Below, piece after piece: positions 29,664 through 50,094 of a stretch of DNA of 64,000 nt. Both the position numbers and the translations under genes were made by a program. The stretch is from NCBI RefSeq assembly GCF_036226525.1, contig NZ_CP108487.1:5766001-5830000 (forward strand), written 5' to 3'. Each line of letters starts with the position of its first letter. The stretch's first letter is position 1. This DNA is from Kribbella sp. NBC_01245 (GTDB lineage Bacteria; Actinomycetota; Actinomycetes; Propionibacteriales; Kribbellaceae). The notes under the pieces were generated by a model. The model did no database searches, was not told the origin of the DNA, and was given only the letters and a program-made list of their open reading frames with translations.

Positions 29664-29920
29664 AACCTGCTCACCCATGAGCGGGATAACGAAACTCTGA
29701 ACGGCTCTGCGCCCTTGCCGAAGACAGCGCCGCGAGCCGGAGCCGTGGAACAGTCTCGCTGGGTAGTCTCACCAGTGCCGCCTGTGCGGACAAGACGTGA
29801 GTGCCGAGTGTTCGATGTTGCTTGGCGCTTGCGGCGCCCAGGCACCGCGATGCACGCACCTGAACACCGCAATCACTCAAGCAACATCGAACACTCGGCA
29901 CTACAGGGCACCGGAGGCGA
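29664..29920. other. Leader of the SARP-type gene containing a 103-base palindromic element
   Basis: No gene is seen. The stretch contains the family A inverted repeat (29800-29902), which ends 18 bases before the downstream ATG, and a GGAGG ribosome binding site at about 29910. Confidence 0.6.
29800..29902. repeat. Family A long inverted repeat, copy 1
   Basis: Perfect 25-bp arms at 29800-29824 and 29878-29902, starting AGTGCCGAGTGTTCG, with a 53-base spacer. Inside are further nested pairs: TTGCGG (29829-29834) with CCGCAA (29867-29872) and CAGG (29839-29842) with CCTG (29859-29862). The whole folds as one long hairpin. The internal GCGGCGCCCAGGC is shared with the element at 45206-45371. 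Confidence 0.8.
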
Positions 29921-32770
29921 ATGCAGTACGCAGTGCTCGGACCGGTCGAGGTCGAGGGTGACGCTGGGCGGATACCGCTCGGCGGGAAGCAGCATGTCGT
30001 CACGGCGGCGCTGCTCTGCCGGCCGAACCAGGCCGTCTCGACCGACGTCCTGATCGACCTGCTCTGGCCGGACGATCCACCGGCCACTGCCCGCAACAGC
30101 CTCCAGGTCTACGTCTACCGGCTGCGCAAAGCCCTGGGCAGCGACAGCCTCGTCAGCCACACGGCCGCCGGATACACCCTGCTGGTGCAACCGGGCGAGC
30201 TGGACGTCTACCGATTCGAAGAGGCCGCCGCGGCTGGGCGGCAGGCCATGGCCGACGGGATGACCGAGGACGCCGCGAAGCTCTGGCAGGAGGCGCTGGA
30301 CCTCTGGAGAGGCGAGGCGTTTGCCGGGACCAACGAGCTCACGCCAATCCGGGAAGAGGCGGCGCGGCTGGAAGAGCTGCGGCTGGCGACTCTCGAGCAC
30401 CGGTTCGAGGCGGAGTTGGCGCTCGGGCGGCATACGCGTTCGATCCCGGAGCTGACGGCCTTGTCCGCCAGGCATCCTCTGCGCGATCGCTTCCGGTACC
30501 AGTTGATGCTGGCGCTCTACCGCTCTGGACGTCGGGCCGACGCCCTGCAGGTCTATCGCGAAGGACGCGAGCTCGTCCGCGCGGAGCTCGGTCTGGAGCC
30601 CGGGCACGACCTACGCCGTTTGGAGCTCGACATACTCCGCGGTGACGCCGCCTTGGATCTACCTTCACAACGGTCCGCCCTACAGGCTCCGCCAGTTCTT
30701 CCGGCCGCAAGAGAGCCGCGGCCGGCCGAACTGCCTGCGGGTATCCCGACGTTCGTCGGCCGCCATGCCGAGCTCACCCGGATCTCGAACCTCCTGCGGG
30801 CAAGCCGGGATGGAGATCGTCTGACGGTCATCGCGATCAATGGCGTCGGTGGCATCGGCAAGTCGTCGCTGGCCGTAGAGGTGGCCAGAGGCGTCGCCGA
30901 GGAATTCCCCGACGGCCAGCTGTACGTCAATCTGCACGGCGCTACACCGGGCGTGACGCCTCTCAACCCTGACGAGGTGCTGGACCGACTCCTGCGGGCA
31001 GTAGGCGACAGAGGCGCGGGGCTCCCGACTGGTACCGAGGAGGCGACAGCCCGGTTCCGAACGCTAACCGCCGGCCGCCGACTCCTGATCGTGCTGGACG
31101 ACGCCGTCGACGCGGCGCAGGTCAGACCGTTACTGCCGGGCGGTCCGGGCTGTGCCGTCCTCATCACGAGTCGGGACGTACTGACCGCACTGGACGGCGC
31201 CACCCACGTCAGGCTCAACGCCCTGGGTGAAGCCGAAGGCGTCGACCTGCTGAGCCGACTGGCCGGAGTGGAACGCGTAGGGATCGACACGGCCGCATCC
31301 CTCGACATCGTCCGCCTTTGCGGGTGCCTGCCACTGGCGATCAGCATCGCCGGAGCCCGTCTAGCGGCGAGGGACGACTGGACGCCGGCACTGTTCGCGA
31401 AACGCCTCGGCAGAGCCCACAGACGTCTAGACGAACTAGAACACGCTGACCTCGCCGTACGCGCCAGCTTCACCCTCAGCCTCGACCAACTCCGCCGAGA
31501 CGTACGACGCGGAGGCCGTTCCGCTGCGGCGTTGTTCCCGCTCCTAGGTCTACTGGAGACGCCCAGCCTCAGTGTTGCCGTAGTGGCAGCACTGGCGGAT
31601 CGGCCCGAGGAAGAGGTCGAGGACGACCTAGACGTACTAGTGGGCGCTCAACTGCTCCAAGCCCTCGGGCCCGACCGGTTCGAGATCCACGACCTCGTCC
31701 GGCTCTACGCGCGCGAACTCGCCTGGGAAGAACTCCCCGAGGCCGACCGCGCAGCCGCCGTACGACGCGCGCTCCACCACTACCTGGCCACCATCCGGAT
31801 CGCGACGGGCGCACTCGTGTACGACGGAGCCAGTCGCCGCCGTGCGGGTCTGGCCCAGGAGAAGGTGACGCGATCCGGCACAGAGCTCACCGGCCGCCCC
31901 GAGGCCTCGGCCTGGCTCGGCGCAGAGGTCGGCAACCTGCTGGCCATCACCCGGCAGGCGGCGGCCGCGCCCGACGACGGCCCGGAGATCGCGATCGGCC
32001 TGGCTGCCGCGCTCAACGGTCTCGGCAACGTCCGGCACTTCTGGCGCGAACTGGTGCCGATCAATCAGCTCATCCTCGAAGTGGCGCGGACCGACGGGCG
32101 TACCCCGGTGATCGCGCTCGCCCACGCCGACCTTGGCCGGTCGTACCGGCTGACCGGACAACTCGACGACGCCGTCGCGAACTTCGAGGCGGCGCTGGAC
32201 CGTTGGCGCCGGGTCGGCGATCGGACCCAGCAGGGGCACATGCTGTTCGGCCTCGGCGCCACCGCGGCGATGCGCGGTCGGCTCGACGAGGCGGTCGCGT
32301 TCCACCGGGAGGCGCTGGAGATCCGGCGCGAACAGGGTGACCCGTTCGGCGAGGCGCACATGCTGCACGTGATCGCGGTGGTGCTGACCGAGCAGCAGGC
32401 GTTCGAGGAGGCGCTCGGCAACCAGCGTCAGTCGCTCGCGCTCTTCCATAGCCTCGGTGATGCCGAGAACGAGGGCATGGTGCTGGCGAGCATCGCCGAA
32501 CTGCATCATCGCCGCGGTGACGCCGCCCGCGCGGTACCGCTGTTCGAGCGCGCGCTCAGGCTGATCCGCTCCGCGTCCGACCAGATGGCCGAAGCGGGCT
32601 GTCTGTGGCGCCTCGGCACGGCCCTGATCAGCCTCGGCAGACCCGGCCGGGACCGGCAACGCGAGGCGCTGGCGATCCTTCAGGACCTGCGGGCGCTCAC
32701 CGCGGACGAGGTGCGCGCCATCCTGCGGGATCCCCAACCGGGAATCCCGCGCCCCCTGAAGTGGCTCTGA
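29921..32770 (+). CDS. SARP/AfsR-type regulator: BTAD, NB-ARC ATPase and TPR domains
   Basis: 949 residues. The N-terminus is an OmpR-like DNA-binding domain (GGKQHVVTAALLCRPNQAVSTDVLIDLLW ... LQVYVYRLRKALG), then a bacterial transcriptional activation domain to about 245. The NB-ARC ATPase has Walker A GVGGIGKSS near 309, Walker B LLIVLDDAVD and GCLPLAI. TPR repeats fill about 690-900 (each about 40 residues, e.g. LGRSYRLTGQLDDAVANFEAAL). GGAGG precedes the ATG. AfsR-like proteins activate secondary metabolism, but no biosynthetic cluster is near. Its leader carries the family A inverted repeat. Confidence 0.92.
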   Translation: MQYAVLGPVEVEGDAGRIPLGGKQHVVTAALLCRPNQAVSTDVLIDLLWPDDPPATARNSLQVYVYRLRKALGSDSLVSHTAAGYTLLVQPGELDVYRFEEAAAAGRQAMADGMTEDAAKLWQEALDLWRGEAFAGTNELTPIREEAARLEELRLATLEHRFEAELALGRHTRSIPELTALSARHPLRDRFRYQLMLALYRSGRRADALQVYREGRELVRAELGLEPGHDLRRLELDILRGDAALDLPSQRSALQAPPVLPAAREPRPAELPAGIPTFVGRHAELTRISNLLRASRDGDRLTVIAINGVGGIGKSSLAVEVARGVAEEFPDGQLYVNLHGATPGVTPLNPDEVLDRLLRAVGDRGAGLPTGTEEATARFRTLTAGRRLLIVLDDAVDAAQVRPLLPGGPGCAVLITSRDVLTALDGATHVRLNALGEAEGVDLLSRLAGVERVGIDTAASLDIVRLCGCLPLAISIAGARLAARDDWTPALFAKRLGRAHRRLDELEHADLAVRASFTLSLDQLRRDVRRGGRSAAALFPLLGLLETPSLSVAVVAALADRPEEEVEDDLDVLVGAQLLQALGPDRFEIHDLVRLYARELAWEELPEADRAAAVRRALHHYLATIRIATGALVYDGASRRRAGLAQEKVTRSGTELTGRPEASAWLGAEVGNLLAITRQAAAAPDDGPEIAIGLAAALNGLGNVRHFWRELVPINQLILEVARTDGRTPVIALAHADLGRSYRLTGQLDDAVANFEAALDRWRRVGDRTQQGHMLFGLGATAAMRGRLDEAVAFHREALEIRREQGDPFGEAHMLHVIAVVLTEQQAFEEALGNQRQSLALFHSLGDAENEGMVLASIAELHHRRGDAARAVPLFERALRLIRSASDQMAEAGCLWRLGTALISLGRPGRDRQREALAILQDLRALTADEVRAILRDPQPGIPRPLKWL

Positions 32771-32910
32771 CTACCACCCCACCACGACGACGACCGGCTC
32801 TTCGTTATCTCCCCGAGTACGCATGCGATTCCCCCTAGTGGTCTCAGCTTGCCCACCCACCATGCCCCCGCCGCCTGACGAACCGCTGGCACTTCACTGA
32901 ACGCCCGCTT

Positions 32911-33012
32911 CCTTCTTGTTCACGAGTGGTCGCATCTGACCGCCGGACCGTGGGCGGTCAGGTGACAGGCCGCCTGAAGGCGGTCAGATGCGACCACTCG
33001 TGAACAAGAAGG
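32911..33012. terminator. Family B long inverted repeat, copy 1, between convergent genes
   Basis: Perfect 34-bp arms at 32911-32944 and 32979-33012 with a 34-base spacer. The arm begins CCTTCTTGTTCACGAGTGGT. It lies between the convergent SARP gene (stop 32770) and the TetR gene (stop 33014-33016), so it can end transcription from both sides. The arm core resembles that of 49973-50094. The 140 bases before it (32771-32910) hold nothing else that I can see. Confidence 0.8.
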
Positions 33013-33013
33013 G

Positions 33014-33601
33014 TTAGAGGCCGAGCAGGGCGTGCAGCGTGGTGACGGCGTGGGTGACGAGGTCTTCGGCGGTGCCGGGGCGGTCGGCGGGGGGTAGGCC
33101 TGACCATTCGATGAAGAGGTCTTCGACGTAGGCGAGCCAGGCGTGTACCCGCAGCCGCACGGCAGGGCTCGCCTCGGGAGAACCGAGGAGACCGAGGACG
33201 CGATCGGTCAGGGCGGCGCGGGTTTCGTCGTACACCTCGACCACGTAGACGTCGCCGCCCGCGGCACCACGGACGAACGAGATGTACGACGCCCGCCGCC
33301 GATGCACGAACGCCGCATAGGCCGTCAGCATCTGCACCAACTGCTCGTCGGCCGGCAACGACGGATCAGGCGCCGTAACCCGCAGGAGACGCCGGCCGGC
33401 AGCGCTGATCACCGCCACGTAGAAGTCGCGCTTGCTCGGGAAGTAGTGGAACAGCAGCGTCCGCGAGATGCCGGCCTCTTCCGCCACCGCGTCCACCGAG
33501 AGCTCGTGGATCGGGCGCGTTCGCAGCATCTGCAGGCCGATGCCCACGAGTTGTTTGCGCCGGTCTTCGGCTGTCAGTCGCTGCCGCACGCTATTGAGCA
33601 T
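33014..33601 (-). CDS. TetR family regulator of the adjacent acyl-CoA operon
   Basis: 195 residues. RKQLVGIGLQMLRTRPIHELSVDAVAEEAGISRTLLFHYFPSKRDFYVAV is a standard TetR DNA-binding domain, followed by an all-helical ligand domain with a C-terminal extension seen in lipid-related TetR proteins. Divergent from the acyl-CoA dehydrogenase operon, 61 bases between starts. A palindrome TTGAGC-N3-GCTCAA overlaps its start codon, so it most likely represses itself and the operon and is released by an acyl-CoA. A GTG four codons in is an alternative start. Confidence 0.88.
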   Translation of the reverse strand: MLNSVRQRLTAEDRRKQLVGIGLQMLRTRPIHELSVDAVAEEAGISRTLLFHYFPSKRDFYVAVISAAGRRLLRVTAPDPSLPADEQLVQMLTAYAAFVHRRRASYISFVRGAAGGDVYVVEVYDETRAALTDRVLGLLGSPEASPAVRLRVHAWLAYVEDLFIEWSGLPPADRPGTAEDLVTHAVTTLHALLGL

Positions 33602-33608
33602 TGCTCAA
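33594..33608. promoter_or_regulatory. TetR operator candidate
   Basis: TTGAGCATTGCTCAA is a 15-base palindrome with perfect 6-bp arms in the divergent interval, overlapping the tetR start codon and 55 bases before the acyl-CoA dehydrogenase start. Confidence 0.6.
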
Positions 33609-33662
33609 CAAGCCGCTACCGTCAACAGCAGCTGCACGAGCCAAAAGCTGAGGAGTAGAGGC

Positions 33663-34895
33663 ATGGGTTTCGAACCGTCCGCGCGGGCCCAGGAGCTGAT
33701 CGGCAAGGTCGACGAGTTCATCCGGACCGAGATCGAGCCGGTCGAGGCCGCGATGCACGAGGCGATCAGCAAAGCCGACGACCCGTGGCAGCCCCAGCCG
33801 CTGATGGCCGAGTTGCAGGCCAAAGCCCGCAAGCAAGGCCTGTGGAACCTCTTCCTGCCCAAGGCCGAAGAGGGCAACGAGCAGTACGGCGAGGGCTTCG
33901 CGAACCTCGACTACGCCCCGATCGCCGAGCTGACCGGCCGCTCGTTCATCGCGCCGTACGTCTTCAACTGCAACGCGCCCGATACCGGCAACATGGAAGT
34001 GCTGCTCCGGTACGGCAGCGCCGAGCAGAAGGCGCAATGGCTCGAGCCGCTGCTCGACGGCACGATCCGCTCGGCGTTCTGCATGACCGAGCCGGGTGTC
34101 GCCTCCTCCGACGCCACCAACATGGCCGCCACCGCGATCGTCGAGGGTGACGAGGTGGTGATCAACGGCCGCAAGTGGTGGAGCACCGGCGTTGGCAATC
34201 CGGACTGCAAGCTCCTCATCTTCATGGGCCTGACCGACCCCGAGGCGCACCGCTACGCGCGCCACACGATGGTGCTCGTCCCGCGCGACACCCCCGGCGT
34301 AACGGTCGAGCGACTCCTCCCGGCGATGAGCCGGTACGACGAGCCGTACGGCCATGGCGAGGTCAACTTCGACAACGTGCGCGTGCCCGTCACGAACATC
34401 CTGGCCGGCCCGGGTCGTGCCTTCGAGATCGCGCAGGGCCGGCTCGGCCCCGGCCGGGTCCACCACTGCATGCGCCTGATCGGTCTCGCGGAGAAGTCCC
34501 TGGAGCTCGCCCTCGAGCGCGGCACCAGCCGGACGGCGTTCGGGAAACCGCTGGTCAATCTCGGCGGCAACCGCGAGCGGATTGCCGACGCCCGGATCGC
34601 GATCAACCAGGCCCGGCTGCTGGTGCTGCAAACGGCGTACCTGCTCGACACCCAAGGTCTGCAGGGCGCGTTGAGCGAGGTCAGCCAGATCAAGGTGGCC
34701 GTGCCGCGGATGGCGCAGGACGTGATCGACATGGCGATCCAGTTGCACGGAGGCGGCGGCTTGTCCGACGACTTCCCGTTGGCGGCCGCGTGGACCGCCG
34801 CCCGGGCCCTCCGGCTGGCGGACGGGCCCGATGAGGTGCACCGTGGGGTTATCGCCAAGCTCGAACTCGCCAACTACTCGCGGGAGGCACAGTGA
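33663..34895 (+). CDS. Acyl-CoA dehydrogenase family protein (ACAD10/11, LvaC-like)
   Basis: FAD enzyme of 410 residues, first gene of a seven-gene operon. SAFCMTEPGVASSDATN is the conserved FAD/acyl-CoA loop, NGRKWWSTG follows, and IQLHGGGGLSDDFPL near the C-terminus is the second FAD motif. ARTxFGKPL is near 290. The ATG at 33663 follows GAGGAG. Long acyl-CoA dehydrogenases of this kind with an APH-like kinase in the same operon (or fused, as in human ACAD10/11) act on 4-hydroxyacyl-CoA via a phosphorylated intermediate. That role is inferred from context. Confidence 0.92.
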   Translation: MGFEPSARAQELIGKVDEFIRTEIEPVEAAMHEAISKADDPWQPQPLMAELQAKARKQGLWNLFLPKAEEGNEQYGEGFANLDYAPIAELTGRSFIAPYVFNCNAPDTGNMEVLLRYGSAEQKAQWLEPLLDGTIRSAFCMTEPGVASSDATNMAATAIVEGDEVVINGRKWWSTGVGNPDCKLLIFMGLTDPEAHRYARHTMVLVPRDTPGVTVERLLPAMSRYDEPYGHGEVNFDNVRVPVTNILAGPGRAFEIAQGRLGPGRVHHCMRLIGLAEKSLELALERGTSRTAFGKPLVNLGGNRERIADARIAINQARLLVLQTAYLLDTQGLQGALSEVSQIKVAVPRMAQDVIDMAIQLHGGGGLSDDFPLAAAWTAARALRLADGPDEVHRGVIAKLELANYSREAQ

Positions 34896-35671
34896 ACCGC
34901 GTTCTCGTCACCGGTGGTTCGTCGGGATTGGGCGATGCCCTGGTCCGCCAACTCGTTGCCTCCGGCCACCAAGTGCTGCGCACCGACATCGCCGCGGAAG
35001 GCCCGGACGATACGCCGTACCTGCAGCTCGACGTGCGGAACGCCGACGACTGGGACAAGGCCATCGCGTGGTGTGCTGAGCATTGGGGTGGCCTCGATCT
35101 GCTGATCAACAACGCGGGGATCGCCACCGGCGGCCGGATCGACGTCGAGTCGCTGGCCACCTGGGACCGGGTCGTCGACATCAACCTGATGGGCGTGGTC
35201 CGGGGCTGCCGCGCGTTCGCCCCGATGTTCAAGAACCAGCGCTCGGGCCACATCGTCAACACCGCGTCGGCCGCCGGCCTGGTGCATCCGCCGATGATGT
35301 CGTCGTACAACACGGTCAAGGCCGGCGTGGTCGCGCTCAGCGAGACGCTCTCGCACGAGCTGCATCCGTACGGCGTGACCGTGTCCGTGGTCTGCCCGTC
35401 GTTCTTCAAGACCAACCTGGCCGACTCGATCCAGGGTGACGACGCCGAGATGAACAGTGTCGCCCGGCGCCTGATCGAGAAGTCCCCGCGGACGGCGGAC
35501 GACATCGCCAAGGTCGTGCTCGATGGCATCCAGAAGCGCCAGTTCCTGATCATCCCGGACCGGCCCGCGTTGATGTCCTGGCGGACCAAGCGCTTCGCCC
35601 GCCCGTTGTACGACCGGCAAATGCGCAAGATCGCCCGCCGGGCCAGGGAACGGTCCGAAGGCCAGGGATGA
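34892..35671 (+). CDS. SDR family oxidoreductase
   Basis: Short-chain dehydrogenase, 259 residues. VTGGSSGLGDAL is the nucleotide-binding TGxxxGxG motif, LLINNAGIAT the NNAG motif, NTASAAGLVHPPMMSSYNTVKA the Ser-Tyr-Lys catalytic site. It starts as GTGA over the acyl-CoA dehydrogenase stop and its own stop overlaps the kinase start as ATGA, so the three are translationally coupled. It may oxidise or reduce a hydroxy/keto acyl-CoA. The substrate is not deducible. Confidence 0.92.
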   Translation: MNRVLVTGGSSGLGDALVRQLVASGHQVLRTDIAAEGPDDTPYLQLDVRNADDWDKAIAWCAEHWGGLDLLINNAGIATGGRIDVESLATWDRVVDINLMGVVRGCRAFAPMFKNQRSGHIVNTASAAGLVHPPMMSSYNTVKAGVVALSETLSHELHPYGVTVSVVCPSFFKTNLADSIQGDDAEMNSVARRLIEKSPRTADDIAKVVLDGIQKRQFLIIPDRPALMSWRTKRFARPLYDRQMRKIARRARERSEGQG

Positions 35672-36702
35672 GCGTTCGTACCGAGGACGCGTTCGACGTC
35701 GCGGCCGTGGACGGTTGGCTCCGCGGCCATACCGAACTACCCGAGGGACTGCCGGAGCTCGACCAGTTCCACGGGGGCGCGTCCAACCTGACGTACCGGC
35801 TGGGCTATCCCGGTCGCGAGCTGATCCTGCGCCGGCCGCCGAGCGGGACCAAGGCCAAAGGCGCGCACGACATGGGCCGGGAGTTCCGGATCCAGCAGGC
35901 CCTGGCGCCGGTCTATCCGTACGTCCCCGGCATGGTCGCGTACTGCCCGGACGAGACGTTGATCGGCTCCGAGTTCTACGTGATGGAGCGCATCGCCGGC
36001 ACCATCCCGCGCTCCGAGCTGGGCGTCGACCTGACCCCGGCGGAAACGCGCAGGCTCTGCCAGACGGTCATCGACACGTTGATCGAGCTGCATCAGGTCG
36101 ACCCGGAGAAGGCGGGTCTGACCGATCTCGGCCGCGGCGAGGGGTACGTCGAACGCCAGGTCGCGGGCTGGACCGGCCGCTATCGCAAGGCGAAGACGTG
36201 GAACGTGCCGAGCTTCGAAAAGGTGATGGCCTGGCTCGAGGCGAACCGGCCCGACGACGTCCGGATCTGCGTGATCCACAACGACTTCCGCTTCGACAAC
36301 GTCGTACTCGCACCGGACGATCCGGCCAAGGTGGTCGGGGTGCTCGACTGGGAGTTGGCCACCCTCGGCGATCCGCTGATGGATCTCGGTAGTTCGCTCG
36401 CCTATTGGGTCCAGGCCGACGACGATTGGGCCTTCCGGAGGTTCCGCCGGCAGCCCACGCACCTGCCCGGGATGATGACTCGCGCCGAGGTGATCGACTA
36501 CTACTGCGAGCGGACCGGCCTGACCGCCGAGCACCGCACGTTCTACGAGGTGTTCGGCCTGTTCCGGTTGGCGGTGATCGCCCAGCAGATCTATTACCGT
36601 TACCACCACAAGCAGACCCGGAATCCACGGTTCAAAAGCCTTTGGTTCCCGGTCAACTACCTCGAACGGCGCTGCCGCCGTTTAATCGCCAAAGGCAACT
36701 AA
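35668..36702 (+). CDS. APH-like phosphotransferase (ACAD10/11 and LvaA kinase type)
   Basis: 344 residues. The aminoglycoside-phosphotransferase fold shows the catalytic loop VIHNDFRFDNVVL (H-x-D-x4-N) and the metal-binding LDWELATLGDPLMDLG. FHGGASNLTYRLGYPG is the glycine-rich ATP loop. In Pseudomonas putida the homologue LvaA phosphorylates 4-hydroxyacyl-CoA; in animals the domain is fused to ACAD11. With the acyl-CoA dehydrogenase two genes upstream, that pathway is the best hypothesis. Start overlaps the SDR stop. Confidence 0.9.
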   Translation: MSVRTEDAFDVAAVDGWLRGHTELPEGLPELDQFHGGASNLTYRLGYPGRELILRRPPSGTKAKGAHDMGREFRIQQALAPVYPYVPGMVAYCPDETLIGSEFYVMERIAGTIPRSELGVDLTPAETRRLCQTVIDTLIELHQVDPEKAGLTDLGRGEGYVERQVAGWTGRYRKAKTWNVPSFEKVMAWLEANRPDDVRICVIHNDFRFDNVVLAPDDPAKVVGVLDWELATLGDPLMDLGSSLAYWVQADDDWAFRRFRRQPTHLPGMMTRAEVIDYYCERTGLTAEHRTFYEVFGLFRLAVIAQQIYYRYHHKQTRNPRFKSLWFPVNYLERRCRRLIAKGN

Positions 36703-37386
36703 GTGAGCGTTCTGTACCTCGTCCGGCACGCGCAGGCGTCGTTCGGTCGGAGCGACTATGACCGGTTGTCACCCCAGGGTGAGCGACAGGCCGAACGGCT
36801 GGGCGAGGCTCTGGCCGCGCGTGGCATCAAACCGGACCTGGTCGTCTCCGGCGCGATGCAACGCCATGCCAAGACCGCGCGGATCGCGCTCGCGGCCGCG
36901 GGGATCGACACCGCGGTCACGGTGGACGAGGGGTTCAACGAGTTCGACCACGACCAGGTCATCGTCGCGCACAAACCGGCGTACAAGCGCCGTGCGGTGC
37001 TGCTCGCGGATCTGGCCCGCACGCTCGAACCGGCCCGGGCCTTCCAGGAGATGTTCACCGAGGCCACGGCCCGTTGGGTGAACAGCCCGGGCGAGGAGTA
37101 CGCCGAACCGTTCAAGGCCTTCTGCGAACGGACCGAGGCGGCAGTACGTCGTACCGCGGCCGCCCTCGAGAAGGGGCAGACGGCGCTCGTCGTCACCTCG
37201 GGCGGACCGATCGCGGCGGTGGTCGGCCGGTTGTTCGCGGGTACCGACGACCTCTGGCTGACGCTCAACCCGGTCACGGTCAACACGGGGATCACGAAAC
37301 TCGTCGACGGCCGGCGAGGTCTCACCGCCGTCAGCTTCAACGATCACGGGCACCTGGACGGCACCGATCTACTGAGCTACCGATAG
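36703..37386 (+). CDS. Histidine phosphatase family protein, second His replaced
   Basis: 227 residues of the phosphoglycerate-mutase-like fold. LVRHAQAS carries the phospho-accepting His (RHA instead of the usual RHG); SGAMQRHAKTA follows. The second catalytic His of the usual VTHGG segment is Ser here (VVTSGGPIAAV), so activity may be altered. It starts directly after the kinase stop. In this operon it could act on a phosphorylated acyl intermediate, but that is a guess from position. Confidence 0.88.
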   Translation: MSVLYLVRHAQASFGRSDYDRLSPQGERQAERLGEALAARGIKPDLVVSGAMQRHAKTARIALAAAGIDTAVTVDEGFNEFDHDQVIVAHKPAYKRRAVLLADLARTLEPARAFQEMFTEATARWVNSPGEEYAEPFKAFCERTEAAVRRTAAALEKGQTALVVTSGGPIAAVVGRLFAGTDDLWLTLNPVTVNTGITKLVDGRRGLTAVSFNDHGHLDGTDLLSYR

Positions 37387-37395
37387 GGAGTACGC

Positions 37396-38145
37396 ATGCG
37401 TCGCCGCAACATCCTGATCACCGGAGCCAGTTCGGGGCTGGGCGAGGAGATGGCCCGGCAGTTCGCGGCCAAAGGGCACAACCTCGCGCTGACGGCACGT
37501 CGTACGGACCGGCTCGAGCTGTTGCGCGACGAGCTGGTCAAGGCCTATCCCGCGATCACGGCGGTGTTGCGCACGCTCGACGTGAACGATCACGACCAGG
37601 TGTTCGAGGTGTTCCGCTCACTCGACAAGGAGCTGGACGGCCTCGACCGGGTGATCGTGAACGCGGGGATCGGCAAGGGCGCGCCGCTCGGCACCGGCCG
37701 GTTCGACGCGAACCGCGACACCCTGCTGACGAACCTGGTCGCCGCGACGGCGCAATGCGAGGCGGCGCTCGAGCTGTTCCGCGCTCGGAATGCGGGCCAC
37801 TTGGTGGTTATCAGCTCGATGTCCGCGATGCGTGGCATGCCGAAGACCATCACGGCGTACGCCGCGAGCAAGGCGGGTCTCGCCGCACTCGCGGAAGGGC
37901 TGCGGCTGGAGTTCGTCGGCAAACCGATCAAGGTCAGCGCGATCTATCCCGGGTACATCGCGTCGGAGATGAACGACCAGGTGGCCAAGACGCCGATGAT
38001 GGTCGACACGGTGACGGGGGTTCGGTCGATGGTGGACGCGATCGACAAGGAGAAGGGCAAGGCCTACGTACCGGCCTGGCCGTGGGTGCCGATGTCTTAC
38101 CTGATGCGGTTCATGCCGCTGCCGATCTTGAAGAGGATGCTCTGA
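37396..38145 (+). CDS. SDR family oxidoreductase
   Basis: 249 residues. ITGASSGLGEEM is the cofactor motif, VIVNAGIGKG the NAG motif, and VVISSMSAMRGMPKTITAYAASKAG the catalytic Ser-Tyr-Lys stretch. AGGGAG precedes the ATG. Different enough from the SDR two genes upstream to be a separate family, with a C-terminal membrane-associated segment (WPWVPMSYLMRFMPLPIL). The LLM oxidoreductase starts one base after its stop. Confidence 0.91.
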   Translation: MRRRNILITGASSGLGEEMARQFAAKGHNLALTARRTDRLELLRDELVKAYPAITAVLRTLDVNDHDQVFEVFRSLDKELDGLDRVIVNAGIGKGAPLGTGRFDANRDTLLTNLVAATAQCEAALELFRARNAGHLVVISSMSAMRGMPKTITAYAASKAGLAALAEGLRLEFVGKPIKVSAIYPGYIASEMNDQVAKTPMMVDTVTGVRSMVDAIDKEKGKAYVPAWPWVPMSYLMRFMPLPILKRML

Positions 38146-38146
38146 C

Positions 38147-39091
38147 ATGGCCTGGGGTCTGACCGTTCCGCTCACCGGTGTGCCGATCCGGCAGCACCGT
38201 TCGCTGATCAGCGAGTTGGCTTCGCTCGGGTTCACCGATCTTTGGTCTGCCGAAGTGGCGGGCGCGGACGCGTTCACGCCGCTGGTGCTCGCGTCCGAGT
38301 GGGACGACCGGTTGCGCCTGGGTACGGCGGTCGTGCCCGTGCATACGCGGGGGCCGGCTGCGCTGGCGATGAGCGCGGCTGCGTTGGCAGACCTCGCGCC
38401 TGGGCGGTTCGTGCTCGGGATCGGCGCCAGCTCGGAGACGATCGTGACCGGGTGGAACGGCATCGCGTACGACCCGCCTTACGCCCGGACTCGCGACGTG
38501 CTGCGCTTTTTGCGGTCGGCGTTCGCGGGGGAGAAGGTGGACGGGGAGTTCGACTCGTTCACGATCCGGCGGTTCCGGTTGGAGAAGGCGCCGGATGTGC
38601 CGCCGCCGATCATGCTCGCGGCGTTGCGTCCGCAGATGCTGCACCTGGCCGCGCGGGAAGCCGATGGCGCGATCACGAACTGGCTGTCCGCGGACGACGT
38701 ACGCAAGGTGCGGGCGGAGTTGGGGCCGGACAAGGAACTGGCCGCACGGATTTTCGTGTGCGTCACCGAGGACGCGGAGATGGCTCGCAATATCGGCCGG
38801 TTCCTGATCGCGACGTACCTGACCGTGCCGGGGTATTCGGCCTTCCACGACTGGCTCGGGCGTGGTGAGGCGATGAAGCCGATGCGGGACGCGTGGGCCG
38901 CCGGCGACAAGAACGCCGCCATGGCCGCGGTGCCCGTTGAGGTGATCGACGACTTGATCGTGCACGGGTCGCCGGAAGAGTGCCGCGCGCAGATCGGGCG
39001 ATATGTGGCGAACGGGTTGGATACGCCGATCATCGCGGCTCTGCCTACGGGGACGGACCTGCTGACCACGGCTCGGTCGCTCGCGTTATGA
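38147..39091 (+). CDS. LLM class F420-dependent oxidoreductase
   Basis: TIM-barrel luciferase-like monooxygenase/F420 oxidoreductase, 314 residues. LASLGFTDLWSAE, LGTAVVPVHTRGPAALA, LAPGRFVLGIGAS and the ending DDLIVHGSPEECRAQIGRYV are typical of the F420-dependent group with mycobacterial and nocardioid members. F420 rather than FMN is inferred from the family. Translationally coupled to the following gene by ATGA. Confidence 0.9.
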   Translation: MAWGLTVPLTGVPIRQHRSLISELASLGFTDLWSAEVAGADAFTPLVLASEWDDRLRLGTAVVPVHTRGPAALAMSAAALADLAPGRFVLGIGASSETIVTGWNGIAYDPPYARTRDVLRFLRSAFAGEKVDGEFDSFTIRRFRLEKAPDVPPPIMLAALRPQMLHLAAREADGAITNWLSADDVRKVRAELGPDKELAARIFVCVTEDAEMARNIGRFLIATYLTVPGYSAFHDWLGRGEAMKPMRDAWAAGDKNAAMAAVPVEVIDDLIVHGSPEECRAQIGRYVANGLDTPIIAALPTGTDLLTTARSLAL

Positions 39092-40074
39092 AGATCTGCG
39101 TGTACGGCGCCGGCGGGATCGGGTGCTACGTCGGCGGCCGGCTGGCAGCTGCCGGTAGTGACGTCACGTTTGTCGGCCGCCCTCGCATGGCCGCCTCGGT
39201 GGCGTCGGGCGGCTTGCGGTTGACCGACTATCGAGGTGCGGACCTGCGGGTCTCGGCCGTTCGCTTTGAGGTTGTCCCAGAGGCGGCCGCTGATGCCGAT
39301 CTGGTTTTGGTGACGGTGAAATCGGCCGGAACAGCGACCGCTGGTGCCGAACTGGCGAAGGTGCTCAAGCCGGGCGCGGTCGTGGTGAGCTTCCAGAACG
39401 GCCTGCGCAACGCGCCTCTGTTGCGCGAGGCGTTGCCCGGGCATCAAGTGGTGACCGGAATGGTCCCCTTCAACGTGCTCAACCGTGGTGGCGGCGCCTT
39501 CCACCAGGGGACCGAGGGTTTCCTGGACGTCGAGCCCGGGCTGTCGTCCTTCGCCCCAGCCTTCGCGGCCGCCGGTCTGCCCCTCACCGAGCATGCCGAC
39601 ATGCTGCCGGTCCAATGGGCGAAACTCCTGCTCAACCTGAACAACCCCATCAACGCTTTGTCGGACTTGCCGCTCCGCGACGAGCTATCCCAACGCGGCT
39701 ACCGGTTGTGCCTGGCCGCAGTCCAATCGGAAGCGCTCGCAGTACTCAATTTCGCCGGCATCAAACCGGCCCAGCTAACCGCCGTCCCCGCCCACCGCAT
39801 GCCCACGATCCTCCGCCTCCCCGACTTCCTCTTCCGCCGCCTAGCCGCCCGCATGCTCGCCATCGACCCGCTAGCCCGCTCCTCCATGTGGGAAGACCTC
39901 CAAGCCGGCCGCCCCACCGAAATCGCCTACCTGAACGGCGAAATCACCACCCTTGGCTCGGACCTCGGCATCCCCACCCCCATCAACACCCGCATCACCG
40001 AGCTCATCCACCGGGCCGAACAAACCCCCACCCACTACACCGCCCCCGCCCTCCAATCCGCCCTACCCCTCTAG
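39088..40074 (+). CDS. Ketopantoate reductase-like 2-dehydropantoate 2-reductase family protein
   Basis: 328 residues. The Rossmann start is ICVYGAGGIGCYVGGRLAAAGSDVTFVGR; VTVKSAGTATAGAEL and SFQNGLRNAPLL are PanE/ApbA marks; KLLLNLNNPINAL contains the conserved Lys-Asn-Asn of the active site. The C-terminal domain is helical. Last gene of the operon. It may reduce a 2- or 3-keto acid other than ketopantoate, because pantothenate genes are not nearby. Confidence 0.88.
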   Translation: MKICVYGAGGIGCYVGGRLAAAGSDVTFVGRPRMAASVASGGLRLTDYRGADLRVSAVRFEVVPEAAADADLVLVTVKSAGTATAGAELAKVLKPGAVVVSFQNGLRNAPLLREALPGHQVVTGMVPFNVLNRGGGAFHQGTEGFLDVEPGLSSFAPAFAAAGLPLTEHADMLPVQWAKLLLNLNNPINALSDLPLRDELSQRGYRLCLAAVQSEALAVLNFAGIKPAQLTAVPAHRMPTILRLPDFLFRRLAARMLAIDPLARSSMWEDLQAGRPTEIAYLNGEITTLGSDLGIPTPINTRITELIHRAEQTPTHYTAPALQSALPL

Positions 40075-40499
40075 CCGATCACCCCCGACACGCGCGCCCG
40101 CCGGTGTATTCCGTTCATGGGACGCTTGTGACGCGGCGTGTCGCCCATCATCGGACCCGTGTGACCACGAAACCGCCCGCCGTTCATCGGTCCCTTCTGA
40201 CCAGCGCGTGTCGACAATCCGTGAGTGGACGGGTAATGCGTGACGACTCGCGGGAATTGACTGGGAACGGTCGGAGAAATTGCAGCTAGTTGCAACTGGC
40301 AATTGCAGGTTGATGCACACTTGGCGCGGATTCATTGACGGCCCCGCGGAGCTCCCTGAAGACTCATCGGCGATCGGCCATATCGCTGCGCTTTCCGTGC
40401 ATGAGCTGAGGAATCTTGAATGCAACTCTCCAACGCCAATGGTCACGATCGATGCTCCGATTCATGGCTGATGCCAACCGAGTAGAAGGGAGCACTCCT
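40075..40499. other. Intergenic stretch with tandem repeats and TTGCA motifs
   Basis: No firm gene. It holds three imperfect 33-36 base tandem repeats (40111-40213) and three close TTGCA copies (40280, 40290, 40303) ahead of the small secreted-protein gene. A minus-strand frame (40071-40295) would encode GPMNG-type 12-residue repeats; coding status is uncertain. Confidence 0.5.
40111..40213. repeat. Three imperfect tandem repeats, period 33-36 bases
   Basis: Units start at 40111, 40144 and 40180 with the shared pattern CC-(G/C)-T-TCATcGG-(A/T)-CC-C-T-TGAC. Each unit is related to the next at about 60-70% by eye. Lengths are multiples of three, so a repeat peptide could be encoded on the minus strand. 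Confidence 0.55.
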
Positions 40500-40811
40500 A
40501 TGAAGAGAATTCTTTCCATCGCCGGTGCAGCAGTCCTCGCAGGTGGCGCATTGACAGCCGTCGCCGGGCCGGCCTCCGCCACCGCGAACGTTCCACTGTG
40601 TGTGCAATATTATGCGGTCGGGGCTCCGCACCCCGGTGGAACGGTGCGCTGCGACCCAGGCTATGTCTATCAAGCGCTCGTCGTTTGCAAGGATTCTTGG
40701 GGCGCCAAGAAGACCTACCATGGCTCATGGGAACAGTTCCCGGAATGGTCGAACGCCTATTGCACAGGCGCCTATCCGTATCGCGTATCAATTGGTTATG
40801 AAGTGAACTAG
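40500..40811 (+). CDS. Small secreted protein with four cysteines
   Basis: 103 residues. A Sec signal peptide (MKRILSIAGAAVLAGGALTAVAGPASA) is followed by about 76 mature residues with four Cys (PLC, RCDPG, VCKD, YCTG), enough for two disulfides, and many aromatic residues. AGGGAG precedes the ATG at seven bases. Codon third positions are visibly richer in A/T than in neighbouring genes, which hints at recent acquisition. I recognise no family. Confidence 0.8.
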   Translation: MKRILSIAGAAVLAGGALTAVAGPASATANVPLCVQYYAVGAPHPGGTVRCDPGYVYQALVVCKDSWGAKKTYHGSWEQFPEWSNAYCTGAYPYRVSIGYEVN

Positions 40812-40876
40812 CCGCGGTCATTCGACAGTTGGTTGCACTAATCGGCAATCGGCCGGCGCTGAAACTCAACTGAAGG

Positions 40877-40911
40877 CGAAGGCCCTTCCCGATGACGCGG
40901 AAGGGCCTTCG
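40877..40911. terminator. Terminator after the small secreted-protein gene
   Basis: CGAAGGCCCTTCC and GGAAGGGCCTTCG form a perfect 13-bp stem with a 9-base loop. Confidence 0.85.
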
Positions 40912-40974
40912 TCGGCGCCGCATGATTACCGGCAGACCGGGCACTGGCCGGGGAACGACCTGAAGGGAGCCGCG

Positions 40975-41322
40975 ATGAGTATCACCAAGACCCTGGCCGT
41001 CGTACCGGTGGAGGATTTCGAGGTGGCGCTCGAGTGGTACGGGCGGCTCTTCGGACGCCCCGCGGACGCGCAGCCGATGGCCGGGTTGGCGGACTGGCAT
41101 CTGAGCGACAGCGCGTGGGTTCAGCTGCACCAGAACAGCGACTCGGCAGGGAAGAGCTTTCTCAATTTCGCGGTCGACGACCTTCAGAAGCACACGGACG
41201 AGCTCGCGGGCCGGGAGATCGCGCTTGGTGAGGTCATCACGACCGACAAGGGCGCGAAGCTTGCTCCGGTAAACGATCCGGATGGCAACACGATCACGTT
41301 CATCGAGAACCCGTCTGTCTGA
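40975..41322 (+). CDS. VOC family (glyoxalase-like) protein
   Basis: 115 residues, one vicinal-oxygen-chelate domain. TLAVVPVEDFEVALEWYGRLFGRP is the N-terminal beta-alpha unit; LAPVNDPDGNTITFIENP is the usual C-terminal signature with the metal-binding Glu region. AAGGGAG precedes the ATG. Typical uses are ring cleavage, lactoylglutathione chemistry or antibiotic sequestration; none can be assigned here. Convergent with the decayed cupin gene. Confidence 0.88.
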   Translation: MSITKTLAVVPVEDFEVALEWYGRLFGRPADAQPMAGLADWHLSDSAWVQLHQNSDSAGKSFLNFAVDDLQKHTDELAGREIALGEVITTDKGAKLAPVNDPDGNTITFIENPSV

Positions 41323-41335
41323 ACCAGTGCCGGCT

Positions 41336-41782
41336 TCAGACCGGGATCGAGTCGTACCGGGCTGAGATCGCCGTACGGGCGGCTCGGTCGCGAATCGCGT
41401 TCTGTGGCAGTTCGCCGAGCTCGAAGAACATCTCCTCCAGCCCGCCCGGCACCATCAAGGTCAGGAACCGGCCGCCGCCCTCGGCCGCGGTGATGGTGTG
41501 CGCCGTTTCCCGCGGTACCAGGATGTAGGTCCCCGGATCCGCCACGATCGCCTCATCCCCGACGGTGAACGTGAACCGGCCGTCCAGAACGAAGAACGAC
41601 TCCTCGAATTCGCGATGCAGGTGCGGCACCGTTCAGGCGCCCTCGCTGCTACCCCAGAACTCCGTCAACGCGAAGGCGTCCGTGCTGTCGGCACCGGCCC
41701 GCAGCCGCATCTTCGCCACCCCGAGATCCACGGTCCGCCCTTGCCCCGGCGTCACGACGTGCGCCTTACCCGGCACGATCAT
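41336..41782 (-). pseudogene. Cupin-domain protein interrupted by an in-frame TGA
   Basis: The frame from the ATG at 41782 (MIVPGKAHVVTPGQGRTV) runs to SSEGA, meets TGA at 41633-41635, then continues in the same frame as TVPHLHREFEESFFVLDGRFTF to 41336. The two parts make one complete cupin: HLHREFEES holds the metal ligands, and VPRETAHT is motif 2. In related cupins the residue before TVPH is usually Trp, so TGG to TGA is the simplest explanation. A start at GTG 41629 could still yield the distal 97 residues. A sequencing error cannot be excluded. Confidence 0.8.
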
Positions 41783-41914
41783 CCGACCCACCCCATTTCT
41801 CCGAAGGGGCCGGTGGAACCCCGACCCGCTGCTCTCAACGCCCCGCCGATTCCGCGGCCGGGCAATATCAAAATCTGAAGTTGCCATCCGGCGCCGCCGG
41901 GGTGACGCTGGCAG

Positions 41915-42606
41915 GTGCGGAATTACGGTCAGTTCTGCCCGATCGCCAGGAGCTCCGAGCTACTGGCGGAGCGCTGGACGCCGATCATCGTCCGCAACCT
42001 GCTCATCGGCTGTCGCACCTTCAACGAGATCAGGCAGGGAGCGCCAGGCATCTCGACCGCCTGCTGGCCCAGCGGCTCGACACCTTGGAGCGGCACGGAG
42101 TCCTCGTGCGTACGGTGAAACCATCCGGCCATGGCGTGACCTACGAGCCGACCGAGATGGGCCTGGCTCTTCGGGCGGTCCTCGACGCAATGGGCCAGTG
42201 GGGCGCCCAGTGGCTGGAAATCGAACCAGTTCACCGCGACCCGGCGTACGTACTCTGGGCCACGCTCAAGCTCATCGACGTCGACCAGATCCCCGCACAG
42301 ACCACCGTGATCCGGTTCCAGTTGAGCGACCGTCCGGCGGACGCCTACTGGCTGATCCTGCGCCGCCCGTAGCCGGAACTCTGTACCCGCCCCAGCGGGT
42401 ATCCGGAGGACATCGTCTGCCGCACCGACTCGACCACCATCATCGACCTGCACCTGAAGCGGATCGGCTACCTCGCCGCGATCCGCGCCAACCGCCTCGA
42501 GCTGATCGGCCCGCCCCACCTCACCCGTCAGTTCCGAAGCTGGTTCCGCACCAGCCCCTTCGCCGCCTTCATCCCGCCTGTCCGGGATAGGGGAGTTCCA
42601 GAGTGA
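41915..42606 (+). pseudogene. HxlR-family regulator broken by a frameshift and an amber codon
   Basis: From the GTG at 41915 the frame reads MRNYGQFCPIARSSELLAERWTPIIVRNLLIG, a clear HxlR winged helix. Near 42054-42058 one base is missing, and the protein continues in another frame as LLAQRLDTLERHGVLVRTVKPSGHGVTYEPTEMG. That frame meets TAG at 42370, after which the C-terminal domain goes on in frame (PELCTRPSGYPEDIVCRTDS ... LIGPPHLTRQFRSWF) to about 42606. Two independent lesions argue for a genuine pseudogene. It is divergent from the decayed cupin. Confidence 0.82.
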
Positions 42607-44455
42607 AGGTGGAGCCGGTGTTGGGGGTGCTGGTTACGCCGATGCGGCCGTGGTGGGCTTCGATGAGGTGTTTGGTGATGGCCAGGCCGAGGCCGCTGCC
42701 GCCGGTTTCGCGGCTGCGGGATTCGTCGACGCGGTAGAAGCGGTCGAAGAGGCGTGGGAGATGCTCGGGCGCGATGCCCGTACCGGTGTCGGTGACGTCG
42801 ATGGTGGCACGGCCTCCAGACGTACGCACGGAGACGGTGACGCGACCACCCGCCGGGGTGAACCGGAGTGCGTTGGAGACGAGGTTGCCGATCGCTTGCC
42901 GAATGCGAGCGCCGTCGACCGTCGCGAAGACCGGTCCCTCGGCCGAGGCGGTGAGCACCACCTCGGCGGCTTCGGCCTTCGGGCGGTGAGCGGCGACGAC
43001 CTGCTGGGCGAGATCCGCGAGGTCGCGCCGTTCGCGATGGAGCCGGAGCATGCCCGCGTCGGCGAGGGCCAGATCCTGCAGGTCGACCACCAACCGCTCG
43101 AGCAGGTCGGCCTCCTCCAGCAGCGAGCCGACCAACGCCCCGTCGAGTGGGACGACCCCGTCTTCCGAGGCAACGAGATAGCCCTTGATGTTGGCGAGCG
43201 GCGTGCGCAACTCATGCGCGACATCGCTGACCATGGCCTTGCGCTGATGGTCGTGCTGCTCGATCGACGCTGCCATCGCGTTGAAGGCGTGCCCGAGCCG
43301 CGCCACTTCGTCGGTACCGCTGACCGGGACGCGGGCGCCGCGATGCCCCGAGGCCATCTGCTGGGCGGCGCCGGTCAGGGCCACGATCGGGCGGACAAGT
43401 CGGCGGCCGGCGAAGACCATCACCAGGCTCGCGATCAGCAGTACGCCGAGCGCCGTCGCCGTCGTACGCAACAGACCTTCGCCGGAGAAGACGTTGAACC
43501 GGTTGGCCTCGCCGAGGAACAACTGCGCCCGCGGTGCGACGTACGGCTTGTAGGTCGTGGCGCGCGCCTCCGACGTACAGGCCTGGAAGCCTTCGCTCAC
43601 CTTGCTCGCGGACGGATCCTCCGACTGCGGCGGCACGAGCTCGGTCAGGCCGGTCGGATTGGGGACCTGGTCGTACCGCTCGTTTCTCGCCTGCAAGCAC
43701 GCCGTGGCCCGGGCGACCTCTTCGGTGTTCAGCGTGAGGGCAGCCGCGGAGGCCGCGCTCAGCTCCTGCGGCACGCACGCGGCGAATTGCGGATCGCCAC
43801 CACCGACATAGGTGAATTCGGAGCTGGTCTCGTTGACCGGCGTACGGACGCCGACCTCGGGGACTCCGCTCGGCCCCTCGATCAGTTCCGCGTCGTGGCT
43901 GTTCGCCCGCAGACAGCCGACCGCGGCCGTGCCGATGGCCTTGCGGTGCTGCCGCTCGGCCTCGGTCATCCGCCAGTACGGCGATCCGATCGTGCTGCCG
44001 GCGCTGAAGATGACGCTGCCGTTCGCGCCGACCGCCGGTACCGCTCGTCGCATGATGCTGCCACCGGCCGCCGCGGAGACCGTGAGCTGAGGCTGTTCCA
44101 GGATGTCGAGCGCCGCCGCCGGCCGGCTGGGCAGTTCGGGGGCGGTGCCGAGGGTCCTGGCCGAATCCGCGATGACCTTGCCGTCGGCGGTGGTCACGGC
44201 GATCCGGCGGCCGGTCTCGTTCGCGAGTTGGCCGACCAGGGTGCCGACGGATGACCAGTCGGAGTGGTCCGCGGCGTACGCCAGCAGGTCGCCGTAGATC
44301 CGGCCGTCTGCGTCGAGCTGGGTGCCGGACTGGTCGATCTCGCCCTGCAGCTTCTCGGACGTGCTGTACGTCGCGATCAGGGCTGTCGCGATCACGGCGC
44401 CGAGCGCGACGGCCAGGGACAACGTGAGGAATCGCAGCAGCACACTACGGCGCAT
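42569..44455 (-). CDS. Sensor histidine kinase
   Basis: 628 residues from the ATG at 44455. TM1 is LLRFLTLSLAVALGAVIATALIATY, an extracytoplasmic sensor domain of about 310 residues with several Cys follows, TM2 is ALGVLLIASLVMVFAG, then HAMP, HisKA (DVAHELRTPLANIKGYL, phospho-His) and HATPase (DTGTGIAPEHLPRLFDRFYR, GGSGLGLAI). Its start overlaps the response regulator end by 11 bases. Divergent from the lipoprotein/ABC operon, which it probably controls. The end lies inside the HxlR pseudogene remnant. Confidence 0.92.
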   Translation of the reverse strand: MRRSVLLRFLTLSLAVALGAVIATALIATYSTSEKLQGEIDQSGTQLDADGRIYGDLLAYAADHSDWSSVGTLVGQLANETGRRIAVTTADGKVIADSARTLGTAPELPSRPAAALDILEQPQLTVSAAAGGSIMRRAVPAVGANGSVIFSAGSTIGSPYWRMTEAERQHRKAIGTAAVGCLRANSHDAELIEGPSGVPEVGVRTPVNETSSEFTYVGGGDPQFAACVPQELSAASAAALTLNTEEVARATACLQARNERYDQVPNPTGLTELVPPQSEDPSASKVSEGFQACTSEARATTYKPYVAPRAQLFLGEANRFNVFSGEGLLRTTATALGVLLIASLVMVFAGRRLVRPIVALTGAAQQMASGHRGARVPVSGTDEVARLGHAFNAMAASIEQHDHQRKAMVSDVAHELRTPLANIKGYLVASEDGVVPLDGALVGSLLEEADLLERLVVDLQDLALADAGMLRLHRERRDLADLAQQVVAAHRPKAEAAEVVLTASAEGPVFATVDGARIRQAIGNLVSNALRFTPAGGRVTVSVRTSGGRATIDVTDTGTGIAPEHLPRLFDRFYRVDESRSRETGGSGLGLAITKHLIEAHHGRIGVTSTPNTGSTFTLELPYPGQAG

Positions 44456-45155
44456 CGGCCCGGGCCTTTCCCGCAATGGCATCGGTCAACTTGTAGCCGA
44501 CGCCGTACACGGTCAACAGGTACGTCGGCCGGGCCGGCGCCGCCTCGAGCTTCTTGCGCAGGTTCATCACGTGTACGTCGATCGTCCGGTCGAAGACGTA
44601 GTGCTCGAACCCGAACGCGTGCTCCAGCAACTGCTGCCGGGTGAACGCGCGCCCGGGTGATGCCGCCAGGCAGGCCAGGATCTTGAACTCGGCCGGCGTC
44701 ACCTCGATCAGACGCCCGCCGAGTGACACCTCATGCCGGATCGGGTCGATCACCAGCTCGCCCACTTGGTAGACCTTCGCCGCGTCCGCCGTACCGGCCC
44801 GGCGCAGCACGGTGCGGACCCGCGCGACGAGTTCACGCGGGTTGTACGGCTTGGTCAGGTAGTCGTCCGCGCCGAGGTCCAGCCCGAGCAGCAGGTCGTC
44901 CTCGGTGGAACGGGCGGTCAGCATGATGATCGGAATGTTGCCGTCGGCCCGTAATACCCGGGTCACGTCCAGGCCGTCGACCTTGGGCATCATCACGTCC
45001 AGCACCAGCAGGTCGGGCGCACGCCGCCGGGCCTCCTCGATCGCCGCGCGCCCGTCGTGCACGACCACGGTCGAATGCCCGTCGCGCTCGAGGTAGCGGC
45101 GGATCAGCTCGGCCTGTTTGAGATCGTCTTCGGCGACGAGAATCCTGGCTGCCAC
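44445..45155 (-). CDS. OmpR/PhoB-type response regulator
   Basis: 236 residues. The receiver domain is ILVAEDDLKQAELIRRYL ... LLVLDVMMPKVDGLDV (phospho-Asp) ... IIMLTARS ... GADDYLTKPYNPRELVARV; the C-terminal winged helix is EVTPAEFKILACLAASPGRAFTRQQLLEHAFG ... VHVMNLRKKLE. I chose the GTG at 45155; the frame stays open upstream to 45386 but that part lies in the family A inverted repeat and is not protein-like. Paired with the downstream histidine kinase. Confidence 0.92.
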   Translation of the reverse strand: MAARILVAEDDLKQAELIRRYLERDGHSTVVVHDGRAAIEEARRRAPDLLVLDVMMPKVDGLDVTRVLRADGNIPIIMLTARSTEDDLLLGLDLGADDYLTKPYNPRELVARVRTVLRRAGTADAAKVYQVGELVIDPIRHEVSLGGRLIEVTPAEFKILACLAASPGRAFTRQQLLEHAFGFEHYVFDRTIDVHVMNLRKKLEAAPARPTYLLTVYGVGYKLTDAIAGKARADAP

Positions 45156-45205
45156 GTTTTGGAGTGTCGCAGCAGAACGTGAGGATTCTATGAAGGTCAG
45201 CTGAG

Positions 45206-45371
45206 AAGTGGTCGGCGTCGGAGGTTCGTCGGCGTCTGCGGCGCCCAGGCGGGCACATCGCGGCGTTGGAGAAGAAGCCACGATGGAAAAGCATCGAGGC
45301 TCCTTCTCCGCCTTGCGCTGCACCCACCTGGACCCCGCAGCCACTCGACGACCCTCCGACGCCGACCACTT
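45206..45371. repeat. Family A long inverted repeat, copy 2
   Basis: Arms of 26 bases at 45206-45231 and 45346-45371 with one mismatch, starting AAGTGGTCGGCGTCGGAGG. Nested inside: TGCGG (45237-45241) with CCGCA (45335-45339), CCAGGCGGG (45245-45253) with CCCACCTGG (45323-45331), and GGAGAAG (45268-45274) with CTTCTCC (45303-45309). It lies between the divergent response regulator and lipoprotein genes; 45156-45205 and 45372-45443 hold no gene. Confidence 0.75.
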
Positions 45372-49972: not shown

Positions 49973-50094
49973 GCGGGCGGCCCCCTTTACTTTTTGTCCG
50001 CGAGTGGTCAGATCTGGTCCGGGGATGCGGGTGCCTGGATGGTCGCCGTGCGGACCAGATCTGACCACTCGCGGACAAAAAGGGGGCCGCCCGC
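49973..50094. terminator. Family B long inverted repeat, copy 2, between convergent genes
   Basis: A 31-bp perfect core (49991-50021 and 50051-50081, starting TTTTTGTCCGCGAGTGGTCA) is extended by a 13-bp outer stem (GCGGGCGGCCCCC at 49973-49985, its complement at 50082-50094) with a 5-base bulge on the left arm only. Spacer 29 bases. It lies between the convergent ABC permease and MFS genes. The core resembles the arm at 32911-32944. Confidence 0.8.

Follow-up and report, generated by a model that had tools for sequence, protein, structure and literature searches.

A fork-oriented, MITE-like palindromic repeat of Kribbella that may move as a folded single strand

The window analysed here, 64,000 nucleotides of Kribbella sp. 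NBC_01245 (contig NZ_CP108487.1, positions 5,766,001 to 5,830,000), contains two long palindromes with different arms and a common interior, which raises the question of whether they are leader RNA structures of the adjacent genes or small mobile palindromes. Both palindromes noted in the preliminary description, at 29800-29902 (25-base arms, perfect) and 45206-45371 (26-base arms, one mismatch), were confirmed. They belong to a repeat family, here called family A, and have the following features (genome coordinates carry the prefix G000):

29800..29902, + strand: family A copy 1, 103 bp (covariance-model match of 100 bits, G000:5795800-5795902)
29800..29824, + strand: left outer arm of copy 1, starting with AGTG, a perfect arm of 25 bp
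29830..29843, + strand: conserved core TGCGGCGCCCAGGC of copy 1
29852..29861, + strand: GCACGCACCT box of copy 1; the second direct copy of full-length elements is deleted here
29878..29902, + strand: right outer arm of copy 1, ending with CACT, 25 nt, 100% complementary
45207..45370, + strand: family A copy 2, 164 bp, full length, GTCGG subfamily (covariance-model match of 164 bits, G000:5811207-5811370)
45206..45231, + strand: left outer arm of copy 2 with one flanking base
45237..45250, + strand: conserved core TGCGGCGCCCAGGC of copy 2
45346..45371, + strand: right outer arm of copy 2 with one flanking base, 26 nt, 96% complementary
45207..45370, - strand: near-continuous, wobble-rich hairpin strand of copy 2 (-138 kcal/mol vs. 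-115 for the + strand)

Copy 1 is internally deleted, with about 61 bp of the tip missing (alignment gap). Both copies carry ACCTG..CCGCA on the right side, and both fold far better than shuffled sequence (z of -10.7 for the copy at 29800 and -11.5 for that at 45207; none of 200 shuffles was as good). Their placement in gene leaders, as first described, holds loosely: copy 1 closely precedes the ribosome-binding site of a SARP-like gene that starts at 29921, and copy 2 is flanked by a divergent response-regulator gene and by a lipoprotein-like gene with its start at 45444 (gene names by inspection).

The shared interior is not a chance resemblance. The 14-mer TGCGGCGCCCAGGC has 16 exact matches in the 8,679,014-base genome, 15 of them within complete elements that share one arrangement (AGTG-arm, core, inner hairpin, CACCTG..CCGCA, arm-CACT). 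The boundaries of the family are AGTG...CACT, and a typical copy measures 164 bp. A covariance model was built from these 15 full elements of one genome, so that distant subfamilies score lower; it revealed about 37 elements in Kribbella sp. NBC_01245, and matches were found in each of the 36 other Kribbella genomes in the first sample and, in small number, in other genera of the order. Such a search had been proposed with the preliminary description, and it returned many copies with compensatory changes in this genome and in all relatives. A scan of named genomes also detected the family in Microlunatus speluncae, Actinomadura rubrisoli and a Propionibacteriaceae MAG, several other single matches in that scan being due to chance. 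Genome G041 carries copies as well; none was found in G043, G046, G048 and G056 of the same genus. Of 146 copies, 138 contain the GCACGCACCT box, and 130 contain it twice. Short derivatives, e.g., CTAGTGTCCCGTTAACGGGACACTAG, persist in the genome, as would be expected of hairpin-mediated internal deletion. Chance palindromes were ruled out by the copy number. Family A shares with MITEs a short length, the absence of genes, terminal inverted repeats and many dispersed copies. A search of phages, plasmids and IMG/VR yielded no copies, and a literature search of partial coverage yielded no published description. Two further arrangements were also observed: two adjoining elements in opposite orientation (G028:C1:1065444-1065711), and a solitary left arm, AGTGTCCCGTCAACGATGTGGCTC, at a CTAG (G000 189397, - strand; L279/L288), for which no second arm was found within the surrounding 8 kb.

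Three copies (3866923, 4249322 and 4336635) have the same sequence and unrelated flanks, with nothing in common but a CT before and an AG after the element; the consensus of the 150 copies with flanks is YT before the element and AG after it. When the joined flanks were compared with 38 Kribbella genomes, alignments spanned the junction, and the empty site often read CTAG at the insertion point. As CTAG is palindromic, no duplication, a TA duplication and a CTAG duplication look alike at these sites. In the relatives G001 and G004, the two genes that flank the element at 45206 have no such element between them. Dispersed copies, empty sites in relatives and identical copies at unrelated CTAG sequences together indicate a small non-autonomous mobile element rather than a conserved gene leader. 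Family A is thus a non-autonomous mobile repeat inserting at CTAG-like targets, and of the two original suggestions that of small mobile palindromes is borne out, with dispersed copies in all Kribbella sampled and orthologous sites empty in relatives.

The arms had been described as different between the two copies; their sequences do differ, and across the family they proved hypervariable yet self-complementary. Variation is greatest in the outer arms, and the interior is the conserved part. Almost no arm position is constant, and most show all four pair types, yet complementarity is kept: in the outermost 18 pairs of 147 distinct copies (2646 cells), 2538 pairs are Watson-Crick, 65 are A.C, 11 are G.T and 32 are other. 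The conserved "mismatches" of the interior are mostly C.A on the TGCGGCGCCCAGGC strand. The complement of this strand folds into an almost uninterrupted hairpin, in which about ten of some 75 pairs are G.U, and it pairs far better because a C.A on the described strand is a G.U there. It was the more stable strand in 66/66 copies (mean of about -137 vs. -103 kcal/mol; -77 vs. -59 with DNA parameters) and in 150 of 151 in a larger set, in which the one exception, L138:491, was apparently set in the wrong orientation by the motif rule. Inferred pair-breaking changes of the arms, read on the TGCGGCGCCCAGGC strand, comprise 20 G>A, 15 T>C, 4 C>T and 4 A>G (35 vs. 8). The excess of G>A and T>C, i.e., of changes that make a wobble on the other strand, points to the complement as the strand whose pairing is kept; this is the pattern expected if wobble were tolerated on the strand opposite TGCGGCGCCCAGGC. 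A mutation bias between the strands is an unlikely source of the A.C excess, since the excess concerns G>A as well as T>C. Retention of the GCACGCACCT box in one and the same orientation on both arms may account for part of the interior wobble pattern. In L064/L141 and L097, all of them perfect or nearly perfect palindromes, the left arm is the complement of the right, which suggests that arms can be copied onto each other. The pairing asymmetry allows the acting strand to be suggested from sequence alone.

The dnaA gene is located at 5,757,986, 8 kb to the left of the window, and the core strand runs with the direction of the fork in 36 of the 37 copies of the genome. With the origin taken from dnaA and the terminus as its antipode (a symmetric terminus is assumed), the same orientation was found in 221 of 228 copies of eleven complete Kribbella genomes, switching at dnaA; copies shared by descent are not independent in this count, although the tested sites were mostly empty in relatives and identical copies occurred at different places. 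Three of the seven exceptions are near the antipode in G028 and may merely reflect a shifted terminus. In the same 221 copies the better-pairing strand is the leading-strand template.

A conserved structure with free arm sequence, a favored strand, fork orientation and a short target fit the movement of a folded single strand. We therefore lean toward the view that family A is a MITE-like, non-autonomous mobile palindromic repeat of Kribbella and a few other actinobacteria which travels at replication forks as a folded single strand. The working form would be the folded complement of the TGCGGCGCCCAGGC strand, i.e., the leading-strand template. A putative enzyme would recognize the hairpin with its conserved GCACGCACCT boxes and join the folded strand into the genome at forks, thereby setting the polarity. 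The outer arms would need complementarity only, so that they could drift in pairs and sometimes be re-copied from one another. Such movement, attC-like in behavior, appears the most likely mode in our analysis. As a more tentative proposal, which we regard as possible, family A could owe its identity to DNA (or RNA) structure and not to the sequence of its arms. At forks it would then travel as a folded single strand, handled by an enzyme class that includes neither Y1 transposases nor reverse transcriptases, and its outer arms would be rewritten in pairs by self-templated copying.

It is rather unlikely, in our judgment, that family A is an ordinary MITE mobilized as a duplex by the cut-and-paste DDE transposase of a resident CTAG- or TA-targeting IS, oriented by contact with the sliding clamp, and with the hairpin as a by-product of long terminal inverted repeats. 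The CTAG-like target and the terminal inverted repeats agree with this, and replication-correlated orientation via the beta clamp has been reported for several IS families (PMC5371812). However, the terminal repeats should then be the conserved part of the element, which is the opposite of the distribution seen; moreover, the arms are symmetric, so that polarity would have to be read from the interior, and no longer element sharing the arms at CTAGTGNYCNG ends was found in the Kribbella sp. NBC_01245 genome.

We consider unlikely an origin of the polarity in random insertion followed by the loss, through selection or instability, of copies with the strongly folding strand in the exposed lagging-strand template. 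The location of the better-folding strand on the leading-strand template is as this predicts, and chromosomal integrons show the same preference for the folding attC strand (PMC11023631); yet both strands form very stable hairpins, which makes a near-absolute filter hard to explain. Wrong-way copies should also be more frequent among the youngest, whereas all 67 copies above 135 bits have the usual orientation (hand count); the score is a rough proxy for age, and this mildly favors a bias at insertion.

A functional non-coding RNA, or a leader or processing hairpin, made from the wobble-rich strand and kept for a regulatory role is highly improbable: one strand tolerates G.U pairs, as is typical of RNA, and RNase III binding and cleavage are among the observations reported for Correia elements (PMC2649163), but the sites are not conserved between species, flanking genes are of all arrangements (51 with the described strand, 27 against it, 25 divergent and 22 convergent, by simple codon-based gene calls), and Rfam gave nothing above the gathering threshold, the sub-threshold matches being to miRNA-precursor families. 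The leader RNA of the preliminary description was rejected on account of this mixed gene context and of the empty sites, including that of the 45206 element in two relatives; the better-pairing strand, in addition, runs antisense to both window genes.

A folded single strand moving at the fork would need an enzyme, for which candidates were sought in several ways. For the Y1 transposase (PF01797), the Kribbella sp. NBC_01245 genome and 24 others were tested; 11 of the 12 Kribbella lacked it, and the exception was one degenerate IS605-like copy in Kribbella sp. NBC_01245. The locus concerned (L226, G000 about 1477000-1479000) has a TnpB-like gene in one long open frame with a broken tnpA adjoining, and lies near the expected terminus; no second Y1-type element was detected in this genome. 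The reverse transcriptase domain (PF00078), sought in the same set of genomes, was absent from 11 of 12 Kribbella, Kribbella sp. NBC_01245 included, with one degenerate copy in G028. At Pfam sensitivity, copy-rich Kribbella genomes thus contain neither a functional Y1 gene nor PF00078, and mobilization of the IS200/REP type and retro-mobility of the group II intron or retron type were both rejected. Among 108 left-core matches in public genomes no autonomous partner was found; apart from a few chance ones, inspection showed them to be complete or almost complete elements. ORF clusters near 183 loci, judged by eye, contained no recurrent gene of obvious transposase type.

ERIC, Correia (CREE, NEMIS) and RUP elements are imperfect palindromes of 100-170 bp, intergenic, gene-less and present in many copies, with a short palindromic target of TA type. 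Family A resembles these MITEs in being short, palindromic, intergenic, gene-less and abundant, with a short palindromic target, and differs from them in its fork polarity of about 97%, its hypervariable arms with paired changes, its conserved interior and its consistent wobble strand. With REP/BIME/REPIN sequences, which are thought to move as single strands, it shares the dispersed, palindromic and non-autonomous character, but these come with a Y1 enzyme (RAYT), which copy-rich Kribbella lack, and are pairs of short REPs rather than one long hairpin. The fork-following orientation (221/228) is as in REP/REPIN or in IS200/IS605 derivatives (PMC5371812); unlike the latter, family A is one overall palindrome without separate end hairpins and is accompanied by no functional Y1 gene. 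IS200/IS605, Tn7-TnsE and the clamp-binding IS families provide precedents for fork-set orientation, and some insertion sequences moved as double strands can also be oriented by the replisome (PMC5371812). As in integron attC sites, structure outweighs arm sequence and the folding strand is on the leading-strand template, where chromosomal integrons keep the recombining attC strand (PMC11023631). In contrast to attC, the element ends at the foot of the hairpin, between CT and AG, with the boundaries AGTG...CACT; inspection revealed neither the GTTRRRY/RYYYAAC boxes next to cassettes nor a cassette array.

Near-absolute fork polarity has so far been tied mainly to single-strand transposition of the IS200/IS605 type and to Tn7 or clamp targeting. 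A gene-less, fork-polarized repeat without a detectable Y1 transposase or reverse transcriptase would point to an unrecognized fork-coupled route of insertion or a strong filter on hairpin orientation. In practical terms, copies of family A mark the direction of replication and the origin in Kribbella assemblies, and their annotation as leader RNAs or terminators should be avoided.

Other palindromes were also encountered in the genome. A second family (CTTyTTGTyCrCGAGTGGTC...) has copies in the window at 32911-33012 and 49990-50082, with perfect arms of 34 and 32 bp and loops of 34 and 29 nt, and the two copies show paired differences. A third, abundant family, TTTGCGTTCATTCGTCGGAATCCGCCCTC, has arms of 26-32 bp, with five copies in the 400 kb sampled:

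G000 441020 (L101), 1748885 (L105), 3475783 (L109), 4345951 and 4358892 (L111): copies of the third family

Two copies of this family, 13 kb apart, are apparently opposite to one another by their loops, and in this very small sample the family seems not to be fork-polarized. Further long palindromes are located at G000 3488876 and 3489458 (L109), 7812937 (L119), 1506915 (L104) and 2623129 (L107); they include GACGAGTGGACGCGTTTTGCGCCC and GACGATTGGGCGCATCTCGCGCCC, which again show paired differences from each other, and CCTGAGCGGACTGGACGTTTTC.
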